Assembly (NCBI RefSeq): GCF_964355755.1
Contig: NC_092671.1
Location: 7,575,001 to 7,639,000, forward strand
Direction: 5' to 3'
DNA length: 64,000 nt
Source: Antedon mediterranea
Lineage: Eukaryota; Echinodermata; Crinoidea; Comatulida; Antedonidae
Shown here: one piece after another, positions 41,045-54,238 of the stretch
How positions within the stretch are numbered: the first letter of the stretch is position 1
Layout: each line of letters starts with the position of its first letter
Notes under the pieces: model-generated
Told to the model about the DNA's origin: nothing
Database searches by the model: none
What the model saw: the letters and a program-made list of their open reading frames with translations, nothing else
Position numbers and translations under genes: made by a program

Positions 41045-41615
41045 CAACCGCTGTAACTTGCCATTGTCACAATCGGTATCATCGTCCATTGTCACAATCA
41101 GCATTATTTTACATTGTCACAACCGGTATATTATATTGCCGGCCCATCGTCACAATCGGTATCATCGTCCATTGTCACAATCAGCATTATTTTACATTGT
41201 CACAACCGGTATATTATATTGCCCATCGTCACAATCGGTATCATCGTCTATTTGTCACAATCAGCATTATTTTATATTGTCGCAATCGGTTTATTATATT
41301 GCCCATTTTCACAATCGGTATTATTTTCTTTTTGTCACAATCGGTAATATTGCCCATCACAATCGGTATTATTTTATATTGTCGCAATCGGTTTATTATA
41401 TTGCCTATTGTCAAAATAATCGGTATTATTTCTTTTGTCACAATCGGTAATATTTCCCATCACAATCGGTATTATAGTCTATTTGTCACAATCGGTATAT
41501 TATATTGCCCATTGTAACAATCGGTATATTTTCTATTGTCACAATCGGTACTATAGTTTATTTGTCACAACCGGTATATTAGATTGTCCTTATCAAAATC
41601 GATATTATTTTTGTC
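41045..41615. repeat. Minisatellite, TTGTCACAATCGGTAT-type units
   Basis: About 20 irregular units of 20-31 bp share CACAATCGGTAT or CACAACCGGTAT. Open frames run through it in several frames on both strands because stop codons are absent from the unit, not because it is coding. Confidence 0.9.
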
Positions 41616-42562: not shown

Positions 42563-45500
42563 CTACAGTACTTTATGTATAAAAACTGCCATCTTCCATT
42601 GTTGGTCTCCTCCATCGAAGTTACCTCTTTGAATTAGTTCCCATTTCATCGAACGTTCTTTTTGTTTCATGTCATCTTCTAGTTGGTTGTTTGCATATGG
42701 TTCATACTCGTCTAACCATTGCTGTCTCAGCACGTTGACAATAACACCACCTGTAAATGTAAATTTAACACGGTATTCAATTTTACTCACAATAGCTTGT
42801 TTCATTGATATTTAACAGGCAGAAGTTAGAACGGGTGCATTATTATTTCGCCGTGGCAAAAGATTATTTTAATTTTTTTTTTTTTTTAAAGTGTTTTTTT
42901 TTTCTTTTTTTAAATTTATATAAGATATGAAAACAATAAAAAAAACAGTTGGCAAGTTAAAAGACCTATCTATAAAATCGTGTCATTGTACAACCAATAT
43001 AATTTATTTTTATTTATTTGCGCTTTTAAGAGTAACTGAAGCCTGGTTTCCATTAAAATCGCTACAGCGTTTCCATTAAAATCGCTACACGCGCAGATGT
43101 CGCCGACGCAATCGGGAAGGCTCACCCATCGCAGTCAAATCGGCAAAGTTCAACCGGACCATGTTCAACTTTGCCGATTTTGTCGGCGATGAATCGTATA
43201 CGCGCGGCGTACCAAAGAATATTTAGCGCTCGCGTACTAGATCCCCGATAAATTCTCAATTCTAGCGTTTCCATAGAATCGCTACGTTGACTTGTAGAAT
43301 TCAACAACAATACACAAATCCACTTTATTTGATTGCACTTTTATGGAATGAAGAGTAACGGCCTATACAATTGCCATCTACGATAACACATTATATCTAT
43401 AGAATTCAACCATTGACAATAGACACAATACCATACTTTATAATTATTGTTTACACTTTTAGAATAGTAAAATGAAGGTCAACTATACAACAGTAATAGG
43501 CTATACCTGGTTTAACTATGCGAATCCATTCATCGAAACAATCTGAATGAAGGTGGCCAGGGACAAAACCTCCAACGCATATAAGCCCGTCGTAACAATC
43601 TAGATGAAAACATAAAATTATATATTATCAGCCTGCACGATTTTTTAATTCACATTTTTGGTTGAATATGAAATTTGAATATCACATAATAGTTGTCGGT
43701 CTGTCGCCTGTGTGATTCAATTATTTTTTTAAAATTTCATACGCATCCAACAGCGAGTAACTATTTTATAATTGCTTATTTGATATGGGCGGCCATTAGG
43801 GCCAAAATAGACAAACGTTGCCGTACGAACAATTCCGCTCCCGTAAGGCAAACTAATGTCGTTAAAGACATAATTCCTCGAGTGACAAACAAATATTGCC
43901 GTACGGACACACAAACACATTGCCATATGAACAAATTGCCGTATGGTTAAATTGGCGTAAGGACAAAAATTGGCGTAAGGACAAAAATTGCCGTAAGGAC
44001 AAAAATTGGCGAAAGGACAAATTGGCGTACAGTCTAACTAAATATAAACGTTGAGGGCAGCATAGTATTTTAAAACCACGTGACTGAAACCACTCTGTGT
44101 CCAGTCCTGCCAGGTATATAAAATATACCAAATTGACTATTGAGAATTCTCAACTATTACCACAGTACGACTGTACGACGAAGTCTACTGGTATATTCGG
44201 ATAGCTAGGCTGATTTCCTTGTTAACTTAAGGGGTTCATTCATTTAATTACTGAATTCTGATTGGCATGGTAGTATGCCCTAAAGGAAATTTACTGGAAT
44301 CCCATTGGATGGTAAGGTGGTAGTAGGACCATGTCCATCCTATTGCAGTAATAAATAAAGTTGAGCCACCTGCGACCATTACAATGTCCTACCATGCTAA
44401 TGTAGGAGTGGGGAATTATGCTTACTACTGTTTCTTTCTTAATAATTTAGTACAATTATTAAGAATAAAGAATACACTTAACAATATAACAAATAACATT
44501 AATGTACGATGTAGTTTAACACTGTTCTTAACTATAGTCATTTTGGTATACTTGAGAACATTGATAAAGAATAGGATAAACTTAACAATATACAAAAAAT
44601 AAAATTAATGTACGATCCCGTTTAACACTGTTCTCAACTATAGTCATTTTGGTCTACTTGAGCACAGTGATAAAGAATAGGATAAACTTAATAAAATACA
44701 ACAAATAACATTAATGTACGATACCGTTTAACACTGTTCTCAACTATAGTCATTTTGGTATACTTGTCCAAGTCATATTCATCTAAAAGATAAATGCTGA
44801 GTAAACGGGACTAGTGGTCCTACTCTAACATCTGGACGACTAAGGAGGTACCGTACCCCAGTATAATCCAACTAAGTGACTACCAGGAGCAATTCGCCGT
44901 TTTCTCACAAATACAGTATCGAATTTCACTATAATATTAATAAATCGTAATTGAGTTACACTCAGATTTAAAAGATGAGGGCTGAGTAAACGGGACCAGT
45001 GGTCATACTCTAACTTTTACTGGACGACTAAGGAGGTACCCTAGTATAATCCCACCAAGTGACACCCAGGAGCAATCCGCCGTTTTCTCACAAATACAGT
45101 ATAAAATTCCACTATATATAAAAAATCGTAATTGAGTTACACTCAGATTTAAAAGATAAATGCTGAGTAAACGGGACCAGCAGTTCCACTCTAACTTATA
45201 CTGGACTAAGGAGGTACCCTAGTATAATCCCACCAAGCATGGATTAAGGAATATTATTCTATTCTTTAATCCATGCACCAAGTAACTCCCAGGAGCAATC
45301 CGCCGTTTTCTCACAAATACAGTATCAAATTTCACTATAATATTAAAAATCGTAATTGAGTTACACTCAGATTTAAAAGATGAGGGCTGAGTAAACGGGA
45401 CCAGTGGTCATACTCTAACTTTTACTGGACGACTAAAGAGGTACCCTAGAGTATAATCCCACCAAGTGACTCCCAGGAACAATCCGCCGTTTTCTCACAA

Positions 45501-47980
45501 ATACAGTATCAAATTTCACTATATATATAAAAAAACGTAATTGAGTTATTACACTCAGATTTAAAAGATAAATGCCGAGTAAAAACGGGACCAGCGGTCC
45601 TACTCTTACTTAGCCTATACTGGACGACTAAGGAGGTACCCTAGTATAATCCCACCAAGTGACTCCCAGGAGCAATCCGCCGTTTTCTCACAAATACAGT
45701 ATCAAATTTCACTATATATATAAAAAAACGTAATTGAGTTATTACACTCAGATTTAAAAGATAAATGCCGAGTAAAAACGGGACCAGCGGTCCTACTCTT
45801 ACTTAGCCTATACTGGACGACTAAGGAGGTACCCTAGTATAATCCCACCAAGTGACTCCCAGGAGCAATCCGCCGTTTTCTCACAAATACAGTATCAAAT
45901 TTCACTATATATATAAAAAAACGTAATTGAGTTATTACACTCAGATTTAAAAGATAAATGCCGAGTAAAAACGGGACCAGCGGTCCTACTCTTACTTAGC
46001 CTATACTGGACGACTAAGGAGGTACCCTAGTATAATCCCACCAAAGTGACTCCCAGGAGCAATCCGCCGTTTTCTCACAAATATTTATTTTCTAATACCA
46101 TAAAAACCATAAATAAGACATGGCTTGACACAGGCCTTCAATGATCGATTATGTTGTTAATCCCCAGGACTGGACACAGAGTGGTTTTAAAATACTATGC
46201 TGCCCTCAACGTTTATATGTAGTTAGACTGTACGCCAATTTTTGTCCTTACGTCAATTGTTGTCCTTACGGCAATTTTGTCCTTACGGCAATTTTTGTCC
46301 TTACGCCAATTTTTGTCCTTACGCCAATTTTTGTCCTTACGCCAATTTAACCATACGGCAATTTGTTCATATGGCAATGTGTGTGTGTGTCCGTACGGCA
46401 ATATTTGTTTGTCACTCGAGGAATTATGTCTTTAACGCCATTAGTTTGCCTTACGGGAGCGGAATTGTTCGTACGGCAAAGTTTGTCTATTTTGGCCCTA
46501 ATGGCCGCCCATAATTTGAGGGTTAGGAAGTGGAGTTGAAAGAGTCGTGAGTTATAACCCTGACACTAGGTCAGGATTGAACCCTTTGGATTGGAGGGCA
46601 AGCATGTTAACTACCAAGCAAGTGTGTGTGGAACTCTTTCATGGTTTTATGAACAATGTTATGTTATGAAGACACAATGCATAATACTTTCATAACAAAA
46701 CTGTCCTAAATAAATTAATAAATAAATTAATAAATAATAATAAATAAATTAATTCCAAGTTTCCAATGTAAACGATACTGGTACGAGTCCCGGTACGAGT
46801 ATACTAAGAACTTTGGATGAATGAAATTGTTGTGAAGTTGAATTTATCCTACTGCAACATACCTGACGCTATTTTAATAGTCTTGTCGTCAACCCAAACA
46901 CAAATTAGTTCATTCATGATATCCTTTCTGGCAGCTACATCTAAACTCTTCTGAGATGCATCCAACCCGTCAATGTTTCGATAACCGAGTTTAGAAAGCT
47001 ACAAATAACAGAATATACTTACCACGCACAGTACGTTAAAGACAATTAAATATTTAATTGATTGATTTCACAGACTCCCAGCATAACATAAGATAATTTG
47101 GCCAAGGACTCTTGAATAATGTATATATCATACTATAAATCTACTGTTTGTTAATAATTGTATAAAAGTATTTCCTATTTATGCAATTTTGTAAATTTAC
47201 AAAACCGTATTAACATATAGAGAAATGATTTCTGATTGGCCTTTTCGGATGTTCTGCTTAGCTCTGTATCATGAAAATTCCGTAATACAGTATCTCATGT
47301 TTTTCACATTTATCGCACAGTTGTATGTAATGTTTTAATAGGCCTAAACATACCTCACCCGCTACTCTCCCAGTACCACAAGCAAAATCCAGAATACGTG
47401 CATCGGTGTTTGGCAAGTAAGATGACAGTATACTTGCAGATTTTACTGGGCCATTGTAGCCACTACTTATTTGATTCTATGCAAAATATTGTTTAAATAC
47501 CAAGTTTAAAGAATAGTTTATAATTCGGATTGTATCTTTGGTTGTAAACTCAGTACTGTAGGCATGTAACAACTTAGAAATCGCCAAGAGTAGGCCTATT
47601 CTCATTTTTTAATTTTTTTTTCTAGTTATTTTTTGAGAGAATAATTATGTAGGTGTGAGTTGGGAAAATGGTTCTTATAGAAAAACGTGAAACAATAAAC
47701 AGTACACCCGGCGGGGTTGGAACCCATTGAGATTCAATCGTCCAGATTGGCTTTGGTAGACAATCTAAGAAGGTGAGGGTTATTGTGGTGAATAACTTAT
47801 CCATTTATTTATCCACTAGTTTGTCGTACAATATTTATATATATACTTATATGTTTATGTTCGTACCTCATCAAATGTTTCGGCCCATTCGTCGTAGAAT
47901 TTAACATTGTCTTCAGGCTCGGTAACTACTGACGTCACATGGTGTAGTTTTTCTTTTGCTTGAGACTGAGAGGTCATCAT
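42563..47980 (-). CDS. METTL27: METTL27-like SAM-dependent methyltransferase, gene A, five coding exons
   Basis: Minus-strand exons: 47867-47980, 47354-47476, 46863-46998, 43507-43599 and 42563-42750 (114+123+136+93+188 = 654 nt, 217 aa plus stop). All introns are GT-AG and the phases agree. The protein starts MMTSQSQAKEKLHHV, then KFYDEWAETFDE. SAM-binding motif I is ARILDFACGTGRVAGE (about 64-79), the acidic post-I motif is GLDASQKSLDVA (about 90-101), the motif IV region is CYDGLICVGGFVPGH (about 126-140), and KPGG lies near 153-156. This order matches METTL27 (WBSCR27), a small class I methyltransferase whose substrate I do not know. Human METTL27 is about 245 aa. A non-coding 5' exon is likely at about 48354. 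Intron 3 holds a 2.7-kb fold-back element. Gene B at 52060-54238 is a tandem duplicate of identical layout. Confidence 0.9.
43060..43285. repeat. MITE-like element with internal hairpin in gene A intron 4
   Basis: AAATCGGCAAAGTTCAAC and its near-complement GTTCAACTTTGCCGATTT flank eight bases at about 43137-43180. GCGTTTCCATTAAAATCGCTAC repeats near the left and TTTCCATAGAATCGCTAC near the right. It is GC-rich relative to the intron. Confidence 0.5.
44450..44775. repeat. 106-bp tandem repeat, three units, inside the fold-back element
   Basis: TTAATGTACGAT followed by GTTTAACACTGTTCT.AACTATAGTCATTTTGGT recurs at 44499, 44604 and 44711. Confidence 0.85.
44785..46085. repeat. About 193-bp tandem array, seven units, inside the fold-back element
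   Basis: Units share GAGTAAACGGGACCAG, GGAGGTACCCTAGTATAATC, CAGGAGCAATCCGCCGTTTT and ACTCAGATTTAAAAGAT. The last three units have an exact 193-bp spacing (landmark at 45621, 45814 and 46007) and are almost identical; earlier units are shorter or more diverged. Confidence 0.9.
46515..46640 (-). mobile_element. tRNA-derived SINE-like element
   Basis: On the minus strand, TTGCTTGGTAGTTAACATGC (A-box type) is followed about 30 bp on by GGGTTCAATCCTGACC (B-box type). It abuts the fold-back element and shares layout with 36048-36185. It lies in gene A intron 3. Confidence 0.55.
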
Positions 47981-48790: not shown

Positions 48791-48829
48791 AGTGACTGAA
48801 GAGTTTTACTGGATGCTCTATTATCCATA

Positions 48830-49320
48830 TCAACATGGCGGCTGAAATAGAATATTTACAACTTTAATAACAATATATTTGGAATCCTCAGTATCACAAA
48901 CATAGGTACTGTATAGACATCATTTCTAACCTACTATGTTATTTATATGTCAAGTTATAAGCCAAAATACGTTTTAAATGGCGACCATCTTGAATTCCAA
49001 CATGGAGGCTGAAATTGAATATTTACAACTTTAATAACAATATATTTGGAATCCTCAGTATCACAAACATAGGTATAGAAACTATTTTTAACTTGCTATG
49101 TTAATTAAAAGTCAAATTATAAGCCAAAATACGTTTAAAATGGCGGCCATCTTGGATTTCAACATGGCGGCTGAAATAGAATATTTTCAACTTTAATAAC
49201 AATATAGTTGGAATCTTCACTATCACAAACATAGGTATAGACACCATTTTTAACTTGCTACGTCACAAGTCAAGTTATAAGCCAAAATAAGTCAGAAATG
49301 GCGGCCATTTTGTTTTTCAC
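48830..49320. repeat. About 160-bp tandem repeat, three units
   Basis: Units begin AACATGGCGGCTGAAATAGA (about 48834), recur at about 49000 and 49163, and share AACTTTAATAACAATATA, CACAAACATAGGTA and ATGGCG(G)CCAT. It lies between the two methyltransferase genes and is not open in frame. Confidence 0.85.
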
Positions 49321-52059: not shown

Positions 52060-54238
52060 CTATAATACTTTATGAATAAACACTGCCATCGTCCATGTTT
52101 TATCTCCACCTCCTTCAAATTCATCTCTTTTAATTAGTTCCCATTTCATCGAACGCTCTAGTTTTTTCACGTCATCTTCTAATTGATTGTTTGCATATGG
52201 CGGATACTCGTCTATCCATTGTTGCCTCAATACGTTGACAATTATACCACCTTAAAATACAGAAATGGAAAATATGGTTTAGCGCAAGTGGAATTGTTCT
52301 ATTGAAGTTACCATACTCCTATGCCTAACAGCCGAACTAAATAAAAAAACGAAAAATCGTTAGGCCTACTGTACGAATAAAGTATACTATTATATTATAG
52401 AAACATTTTCTTCTGACGAAACTGTCTTCAAACGTAAGATATTAGTTATACTGGTTTACAGTCAATGAACCACCATATCATAGGCCTACCATTATTATAT
52501 TGTTACGTACTAATTGTGCTTTACCGTCAGTTGGGCAGTCAAGATAACTTACCTGGTTTAACTATCCGAATCCATTCATCAAAACAATCTGAATGAAGTT
52601 GGCCTGGCATAAAACCTCCAACGCACACAAGCCCATCGTAGCTATCTGGATGAAAACAGAAAACATGCAGATATAAGTTCACATTACAATTAGAATTTTA
52701 TATAATACTTCTTTTGGCAGGGTATCACGTCCTCGTCCTTCTGATGGGACGTTCAGAAGAGGCGTTATTGGCGGACGGGCCTATATCATGGTCGAATGTT
52801 TGGAGGGCTGTGTTTATGAATACGTTTCACAACGCATTTAATTAATAATTACTTGCAAAATGTGTAGATTATTGAGGCTATGTCTGGAAATAAACTTGTT
52901 CGCAGTCCGTCTAGGGTAGGCCTTACGTACGGCGGATACCTGGCATAACTGATCGGTTTACCTGAGGCTATTTTAAGGGTCTTGTCGTCAACCCAAACAC
53001 AAATTAGTTCATTCATGATATTCTTTTTGGCTGCTACATCTAAACTCTTCTGAGATGCATCCAACCCGTCGATGTTTCGATAACCGAGTTTGAAAAGCTA
53101 ATAACAAAATAGAATATTAAGAACAAAAATTAAAATATCGATATCTGGACAACCTTCCTGAATAGGCCTATCAACCCGGGCGGGGAAAAGATTACTGCAT
53201 TTGAGAAAATGGGGCACAATACTCATATTCCATCGGAAATAAGACCATGTTAGAAATAAGGTCACTGTTTTTTTAATTCTATAATAAAGAATAGAAAATT
53301 ATACCTGGATTGTTGGTAAAATAAGTATGTCCTTAATTTTGTTTTAATTTCATTTTTGAAGAACATTTATTAATTTCATTAATGGCAAAATAACAATACA
53401 TATAAAATAATTTATACATTTTAAAGACTATTTTTGGGATCCTGTATTAGAAAAAATTCAAATGCAGAATGCCAAAGAAATGTATTTGTCCAAAAGTAAA
53501 TTCATGTTGACATACATTTGTAAAGGGTCGTTCACACCTGTTCCGACACGGTTCCGGAACCGTGTCGGAACAGGTGTGAACGACTCTTAAGTATAATAAG
53601 GATTAAATAAACATACCTCACCCGCTACTCTCCCAGTACCACAAGCAAAATCCAGAATACGTGCATCAGTGTTTGCCAAGTAAGAGGAAAATATATTTGC
53701 AGCGTTTTCTGGGCCTTTGTATCCACTCCCGATTTGGACCTGTAAAATAGTGGTGTTGTAGAATAGCAATTGTAATGCAATTGTGATGCCTCCCAAATCG
53801 TTTGCTCTTAATTTCGCTAGTGGTGATGTATAGCCTTACTCCCAACTTTTCACCAGCAACGGAAGAAACTACAACAAATCTAGCATGTTTATCAGGTTAA
53901 TGATGATAACATAATCTGGCATTATTTGGCATACTACAGCCATTTTAACAAATTGACAAAAAATATACAATGACAAAATGTTCATCAGGATTAAAATAAA
54001 TGACAAATACAGATTTATTTGTTTAACAATAGCATGTGATCGGAGATTGAACCCGTATTCCGTACATCCGTTACGTGTGATCGAAAAACATAACGAAGTT
54101 CAGAATTTTCTTTTAAACATACCGTACCTCATCATACGTTTCAGCCCAGTCATCGTATATTTTCACTTTTCCGTCAGCGTCAGGAACATCTGAAGTTATG
54201 TTGTTCAGTTTTTCGCATGCTATATTTAGAAAGCTCAT
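52060..54238 (-). CDS. METTL27: METTL27-like SAM-dependent methyltransferase, gene B, five coding exons
   Basis: Minus-strand exons: 54128-54238, 53617-53739, 52962-53097, 52553-52645 and 52060-52250 (111+123+136+93+191 = 654 nt, 217 aa plus stop). GT-AG introns fall at the same positions and phases as in gene A. The start is MSFLNIACEKLNNIT, then YDDWAETYDE. Motif I is ARILDFACGTGRVAGE, post-I is GLDASQKSLDVA, the motif IV region is SYDGLVCVGGFMPGQ, and the end is MAVFIHKVL. Family and role are as for gene A: a class I methyltransferase with unknown substrate. Exons 3 and 4 are about 90% identical to gene A, while exon 1 is much more diverged. A minus-strand poly(A) signal is at about 51925-51930. 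The upstream acceptor TTCTTTCCAG near 54283 suggests a spliced 5' UTR. Confidence 0.9.
53527..53584. repeat. 58-bp perfect palindrome
   Basis: Two 29-bp arms meet with no spacer at GTTCC|GGAAC (centre 53555/53556). The outer parts read GTCGTTCACACCTGTTCCGA and its complement. It lies in gene B intron 2 and is absent from the same intron of gene A. Confidence 0.95.

Follow-up and report, generated by a model that had tools for sequence, protein, structure and literature searches.

Drosophila foldback (FB) elements, which make 9-bp duplications and are assigned to the Mutator group, have inverted repeats built from tandem repeats, and a pair of copies can mobilize the intervening DNA. The foldback-like element Tetris of Drosophila virilis (PMC4079207) has long inverted repeats whose internal tandem repeats are tied to satellite DNA and are proposed to originate from its own flanking domain; its duplications are 8–10 bp long, and no transposase-coding relative has been found. 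Short satellite arrays with variable unit number are carried by the non-autonomous miniature inverted-repeat transposable element (MITE) miDNA4 of Xenopus and by Helitrons of Crassostrea gigas (PMC12628747, PMC8268682). Complete IS3EU families always end in TA..TA and usually have 6-bp duplications (Kojima and Bao, PMC10045372). Here we analyse a 2,730-bp element at positions 43784–46513 of a 64,000-nucleotide stretch of the Antedon mediterranea genome (GCF_964355755.1, NC_092671.1, positions 7,575,001 to 7,639,000, forward strand; hereafter the window), which is very probably a non-autonomous, foldback-like member of IS3EU with a core assembled from two other transposon families, X and Y.

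The element is bounded by inverted repeats of about 340 bp with tips beginning TATGGGCGGCC, and its arms are complementary in three blocks of 243, 61 and 23 nt (97%, 98% and 100%, respectively). Both arms contain tandem runs of an 18-bp unit, GGCGTAAGGACAAAAATT, so that in the structural sense it is a foldback element, having long inverted repeats with internal tandem repeats. An initial annotation of this DNA had already described the arms, the subterminal runs and the exact ATTTGA on both sides, and all three were recovered at the coordinates given in Table 1. Single-strand folding of one arm revealed no excess structure (z −0.84), and the window copy has no gene. The element shares with Tetris the foldback-like build, satellite-related internal tandem repeats and near-identical copies one repeat unit apart, but differs in its 6-bp duplications, in repeats that come from other transposons and in having a transposase-coding relative. 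It resembles GingerRoot and other IS3EU elements in its termini, its duplications and a same-ended relative with an integrase-like DDE transposase (rva_4), and differs from them in being geneless, in its long repeat-rich arms and in its composite core. Compared with miDNA4 and the Crassostrea gigas Helitrons, which belong to other superfamilies, it fuses two tandem-repeat modules that move as a unit. The element type is thus already known from Tetris, FB and IS3EU, whereas the combination appears to be new: no foldback-type or satellite-carrying IS3EU element was reported in the titles, abstracts and passages of the literature consulted. IS3EU and satellites had been connected earlier: the C. 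gigas satellitome lists two satellites similar to IS3EU.

The feature is a real transposon insertion and not a chance arrangement, because 140 sites in the genome match its 25-bp tip with no more than 3 mismatches, whereas the reversed pattern has none, and because 19 of 26 end pairs show perfect 6-bp target duplications, which none of the 648 mismatched controls (left and right flanks from different copies) does. These 26 pairs, which include two segmental duplicates of each other (L033 and L034) and the composite pair on C5 (L030), agree in at least 5 of 6 bases in 22 cases; at other lengths, perfect matches were absent at 4, 5 and 8 bp and occurred once at 7 bp. The left arm itself has at least 43 genome matches. 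Many copies with 6-bp duplications are what the initial annotation had proposed to search for, and these counts exclude the contrary outcomes of ends found only here or flanks devoid of duplications. The element sits in a copy of a dispersed repeat: the joined flanks align across the joint with numerous other copies, and five aligned paralogues run through the site without the element, each with a single CATTTGAGG-like stretch (in one of them with a 2-base difference), a direct demonstration of the empty site. The intron of the paralogous gene B had originally been suggested for this comparison. The element is indeed absent from it (52664–52958), but the intron is unusable as an empty site because its sequence shows no alignment to the joined flanks (best BLAST E-value 0.75), and the dispersed-repeat sites were used instead.

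We place the family in IS3EU because of its TA..TA ends, its 6-bp duplications and the enzyme encoded by a relative with the same ends, L051 (C7:24616237-24621143, 4.9 kb, target-site duplication TGTTAT). The termini read TATGGGC...GCCCATA in the window copy, in L051 and in most aligned copies. Exon-like pieces of L051 match Pfam rva_4 (PF24764), an IS3/IS481-like DDE transposase, over profile positions 15–184 with no stops, scoring E 9e-28 in one reading frame and 3.7e-19 in another, with a third segment covering profile positions 82–125. Among the rva_4 matches listed, only L051 falls between listed ends (100 of the 140 ends being listed). The arms of L051 are mutually 99.7% identical over 377 bp; its tip matches that of the window element over 27 bp (96%, E 5e-9) and its inner terminal repeat over 30 bp (83%, E 4e-4), with GTT(T)GAGGGCAGCAT in common. 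The search for an autonomous relative therefore yielded an autonomous-looking one. An L051-type transposase may act on the ends of the window copy, as the shared 27-bp and 30-bp stretches suggest.

The interior had been read as made wholly of tandem repeats, but 44111–44471 and 46084–46164 are not tandem. From left to right it consists of 361 bp of non-tandem sequence, the 106-bp array, the 181–193-bp array and 81 bp that are again non-tandem. By sequence comparison the first two derive from the dispersed family Y and the 193-bp array from the foldback family X, which makes the interior a chimera of two other transposon families, a feature overlooked in the initial annotation. Families X and Y are each dispersed independently of the window family. 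Over 110 bp, the Y/X junction is 99–100% identical in the window copy, L029, both copies of L030, L031, L032, L035 and L037, and 94% identical in L042; wherever both ends are readable, the 6-bp duplications of these copies differ. Since at least eight copies have this junction in common, a single chimera formed and then transposed repeatedly as a unit.

Copies in other states suggest an order of capture. The X-free copies L055 and L057 read on across the X entry point, with ATAATCATGRAAG followed by unrelated sequence, and L038, L043, L045 and L054 contain X without Y. An IS3EU MITE of ~0.6–0.9 kb would first have acquired a copy of foldback X, the carrier of the ~181/193-bp repeat, after which gene conversion or fold-back repair may have restored the palindrome. 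Part of transposon Y, the carrier of the 106-bp repeat, would have been acquired later, with deletions between, and the chimera then moved as a unit on at least several occasions. An IS3EU transposase would recognize the ends, move the element in trans and join the ends to staggered breaks 6 bp apart, giving the 6-bp duplications. The internal array still changes by whole units, probably via unequal exchange or replication slippage.

Several points weigh against this account. The IS3EU assignment is based on termini, target-site duplication and enzyme family rather than on a transposase tree, and L051 is the one coding copy with window-type ends that was found; its homology to the window element extends over just ~27 bp of the tip and ~30 bp further in, and its subterminal units are 20 bp long rather than 18 bp. 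In addition, the sequence beside X in X-containing IS3EU copies is inverted on the two sides and not directly repeated, so that a simple X insertion with a 9-bp duplication is not directly seen and some re-palindromization must be assumed. Other superfamilies fit less well. Mavericks (Polintons) also make 6-bp duplications, and one same-ended copy with GTACGT duplications is 19.4 kb long (C9:22664555-22684003; L046, L047, L049 and L050), but a derivation from this group is highly improbable: the long copy is non-autonomous and inflated by nested long interspersed nuclear element (LINE), Harbinger-type and Ty3/Gypsy-type elements, to which its genes belong, and the coding relative L051 has an rva_4 enzyme. 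A Maverick would be a large coding element with PolB and a retroviral-type integrase, and the open reading frames scanned in the 19.4-kb copy gave no PolB match. Polinton ends usually start with AG, whereas those of the window family are TA..TA. The Harbinger-type transposase was also rejected as a partner of the family, because copies of it with 100% identity occur at loci not associated with the listed TATGGGCGGCC ends. As in Tetris (PMC4079207), the inverted repeats are long and contain tandem repeats, and the core resembles a satellite, which recalls a classical Mutator/FB or P/Galileo foldback. The window family can hardly be one, however, as its duplications are 6 bp and not 7–10 bp (for Mutator/FB, 9 bp, range 8–11 bp) and the transposase of the coding relative is of the integrase-like rva_4 type; such a classification may hold for family X, with its 9-bp duplications.

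Two further alternatives concern the origin of the copies and of their repeats. An origin of the copies by segmental duplication or misassembly rather than by transposition would suit one pair with common flanking sequence (C2:11911083 and C2:11865085), which is a segmental duplicate, but all other compared copies differ in flanks and in 6-bp duplications, and empty sites exist; for the family as a whole this explanation is refuted with near certainty. The two chimeric copies of that pair (L034, C2:11864600-11867100; L033, C2:11910600-11913100) lie 46 kb apart, and their region is a segmental duplication because both have the same flanks; their ends have no matching duplication and contain a 26-bp repeat of the right tip. 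Alternatively, free satellites could have been captured independently by the IS3EU element and by X. Such capture is described for other MITEs (see the review PMC12628747), and monomer divergence within X (mean 7.2%) is similar to that between IS3EU copies and X (8.0%). This is nevertheless unlikely, as IS3EU copies hold terminal and subterminal X sequence beside the array, X-free IS3EU copies mark the entry point, and the listed, inspected arrays outside the IS3EU family all abut X ends.

Transposition of the IS3EU chimera is recent. A sibling at C1:12172265 differs from the window copy by 1 substitution in 2,536 aligned bases, by one exact 193-bp unit fewer and by 14 bp in the right arm, and its duplication is GACGTC rather than ATTTGA. 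Because the siblings differ by so little, both the transposition and the gain or loss of a 193-bp unit are recent events. The last three 193-bp units of the window array are 99.4–100% identical, in line with the near-identity noted initially, and the sibling lends support to the recent amplification inside a mobile element that had been proposed from it. At C5:1642000-1648084 (L030), two chimeric copies enclose 271 bp of an unrelated repeat that is present in high copy number (at least 39 further copies at 99%). The outer flanks of the pair share AGTAAC and do not match the 271-bp repeat, while the inner flanks consist of that repeat itself; most simply, a single copy of the repeat received two insertions, which then moved as a composite along with the intervening DNA. 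The pair thereby resembles FB composites in appearing to move the DNA between its copies, although the window family differs from FB in its 6-bp duplications and IS3EU ends, and the duplication length of family X is nearer to that of FB. This suggests that the little-studied IS3EU elements can become foldback-like carriers able to move other DNA, such as the 271-bp piece.

How satellites spread to new places has long been asked, and the favoured answer, transposons, is backed mostly by circumstantial evidence. A single genome displays the steps here, from X-free IS3EU copies through those with X and those with both X and Y to siblings one unit apart, and most of these staged copies carry a recorded target duplication. 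Since the core comes from two mobile elements with satellite-like repeats, satellite blocks travel through this genome as transposon cargo. The initial annotation had expected 193-bp arrays both inside and outside elements. Arrays outside this family do occur but, as far as inspected, not as free satellites: among the listed matches, every inspected cluster of 193-bp units adjoins X ends or sits in an IS3EU chimera (the array at C11:18896263 is another chimera), and no free 181/193-bp array was seen among these clusters, with 22 of 305 candidates scored. Tentatively, and at somewhat less than even confidence, the 181/193-bp and 106-bp satellites may exist mainly or only as cargo of DNA transposons with terminal inverted repeats, namely X elements of 7–33 kb filled with tandem repeats, Y elements, and chimeras that would exchange entire satellite modules among unrelated families.

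Family X ends (GCTTGTGTCAAGC) number 68 genome-wide against 0 in the control, mostly as inverted pairs 7–33 kb apart, with perfect 9-bp duplications in 9 of 12 pairs and 8 of 9 matching bases in 2 of 12. Such foldbacks include C1:21189257-21202419 and about 30 other pairs (L064–L079, L087–L106; 7–33 kb), and the copies read contain ~181-bp tandem arrays in two orientations. A 7.5-kb copy has a short arm with 15-bp repeats and head-to-tail 181-bp units whose orientation reverses once, and contains no reading frame of 90 amino acids. No transposase was found for family X; Mutator transposase candidates were rejected, as the PF10551 and PF20700 matches lie outside the listed X ends. In family Y, the CAGGTATATAAAATATACC segment and the 106-bp array recur together at dispersed sites with long 106-bp arrays. 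Copies from C3:9452759 onwards (L081, L085) and C2:14548477 onwards (L083, L084) have an inner 82–87-bp array and a reversed 106-bp array, and the one at C3:9452759 appears by eye to be flanked by an 8-bp direct repeat, CGAATATC, a possible duplication.

Table 1 Features of the element and its insertion site (window positions)
Feature	Position	Strand	Remark
Conserved block (likely exon) of gene A	43504-43617	-	89% to gene B 52550-52663
Left target-site duplication ATTTGA	43778-43783	.	single copy at paralogous empty sites
Non-autonomous foldback element, probably IS3EU-type, 2,730 bp	43784-46513	.	
Left terminal inverted repeat, TATGGGCGGCCATTAGGGCC...CAGTCCTG	43784-44109	+	ends common to transposase-coding relative L051
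Subterminal 18-bp tandem repeats (AAATTGGCGTAAGGACAA), left arm	43949-44029	+	
End segment of family Y, starts CAGGTATATAAAATATACC	44111-44471	+	independent Y copies match at 87-88% identity
Family Y tandem array of 106-bp units (2.8 units)	44472-44766	+	
Y/X junction	44751-44800	+	
181-193-bp tandem array from family X	~44781-46083	+	last three 193-bp units nearly identical
X subterminal/terminal remnant, ends GCTTGACACAGGC (X end GCTTGTGTCAAGC)	46084-46135	-	internal deletion ~100 bp
Remnant of original IS3EU MITE interior (cttcaatgatcgattatgttgttaatccc)	46136-46164	-	
Right terminal inverted repeat, with 18-bp repeats 46231-46348	46165-46513	-	
Right target-site duplication ATTTGA	46514-46519	.	
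Next conserved block (likely exon) of gene A, other side of insertion	46860-47015	-	92% to gene B 52959-53111

The element is inserted in an intron of gene A, between two of its conserved blocks. Genes A (43504–47473) and B (52550–53736) are tandem paralogues on the minus strand and probably methyltransferase-like, the Pfam support for their methyltransferase-like frames being below cut-off. Further local repeats in the window lie at 41061–41611 and 48827–49319, with copies 71–87% alike.

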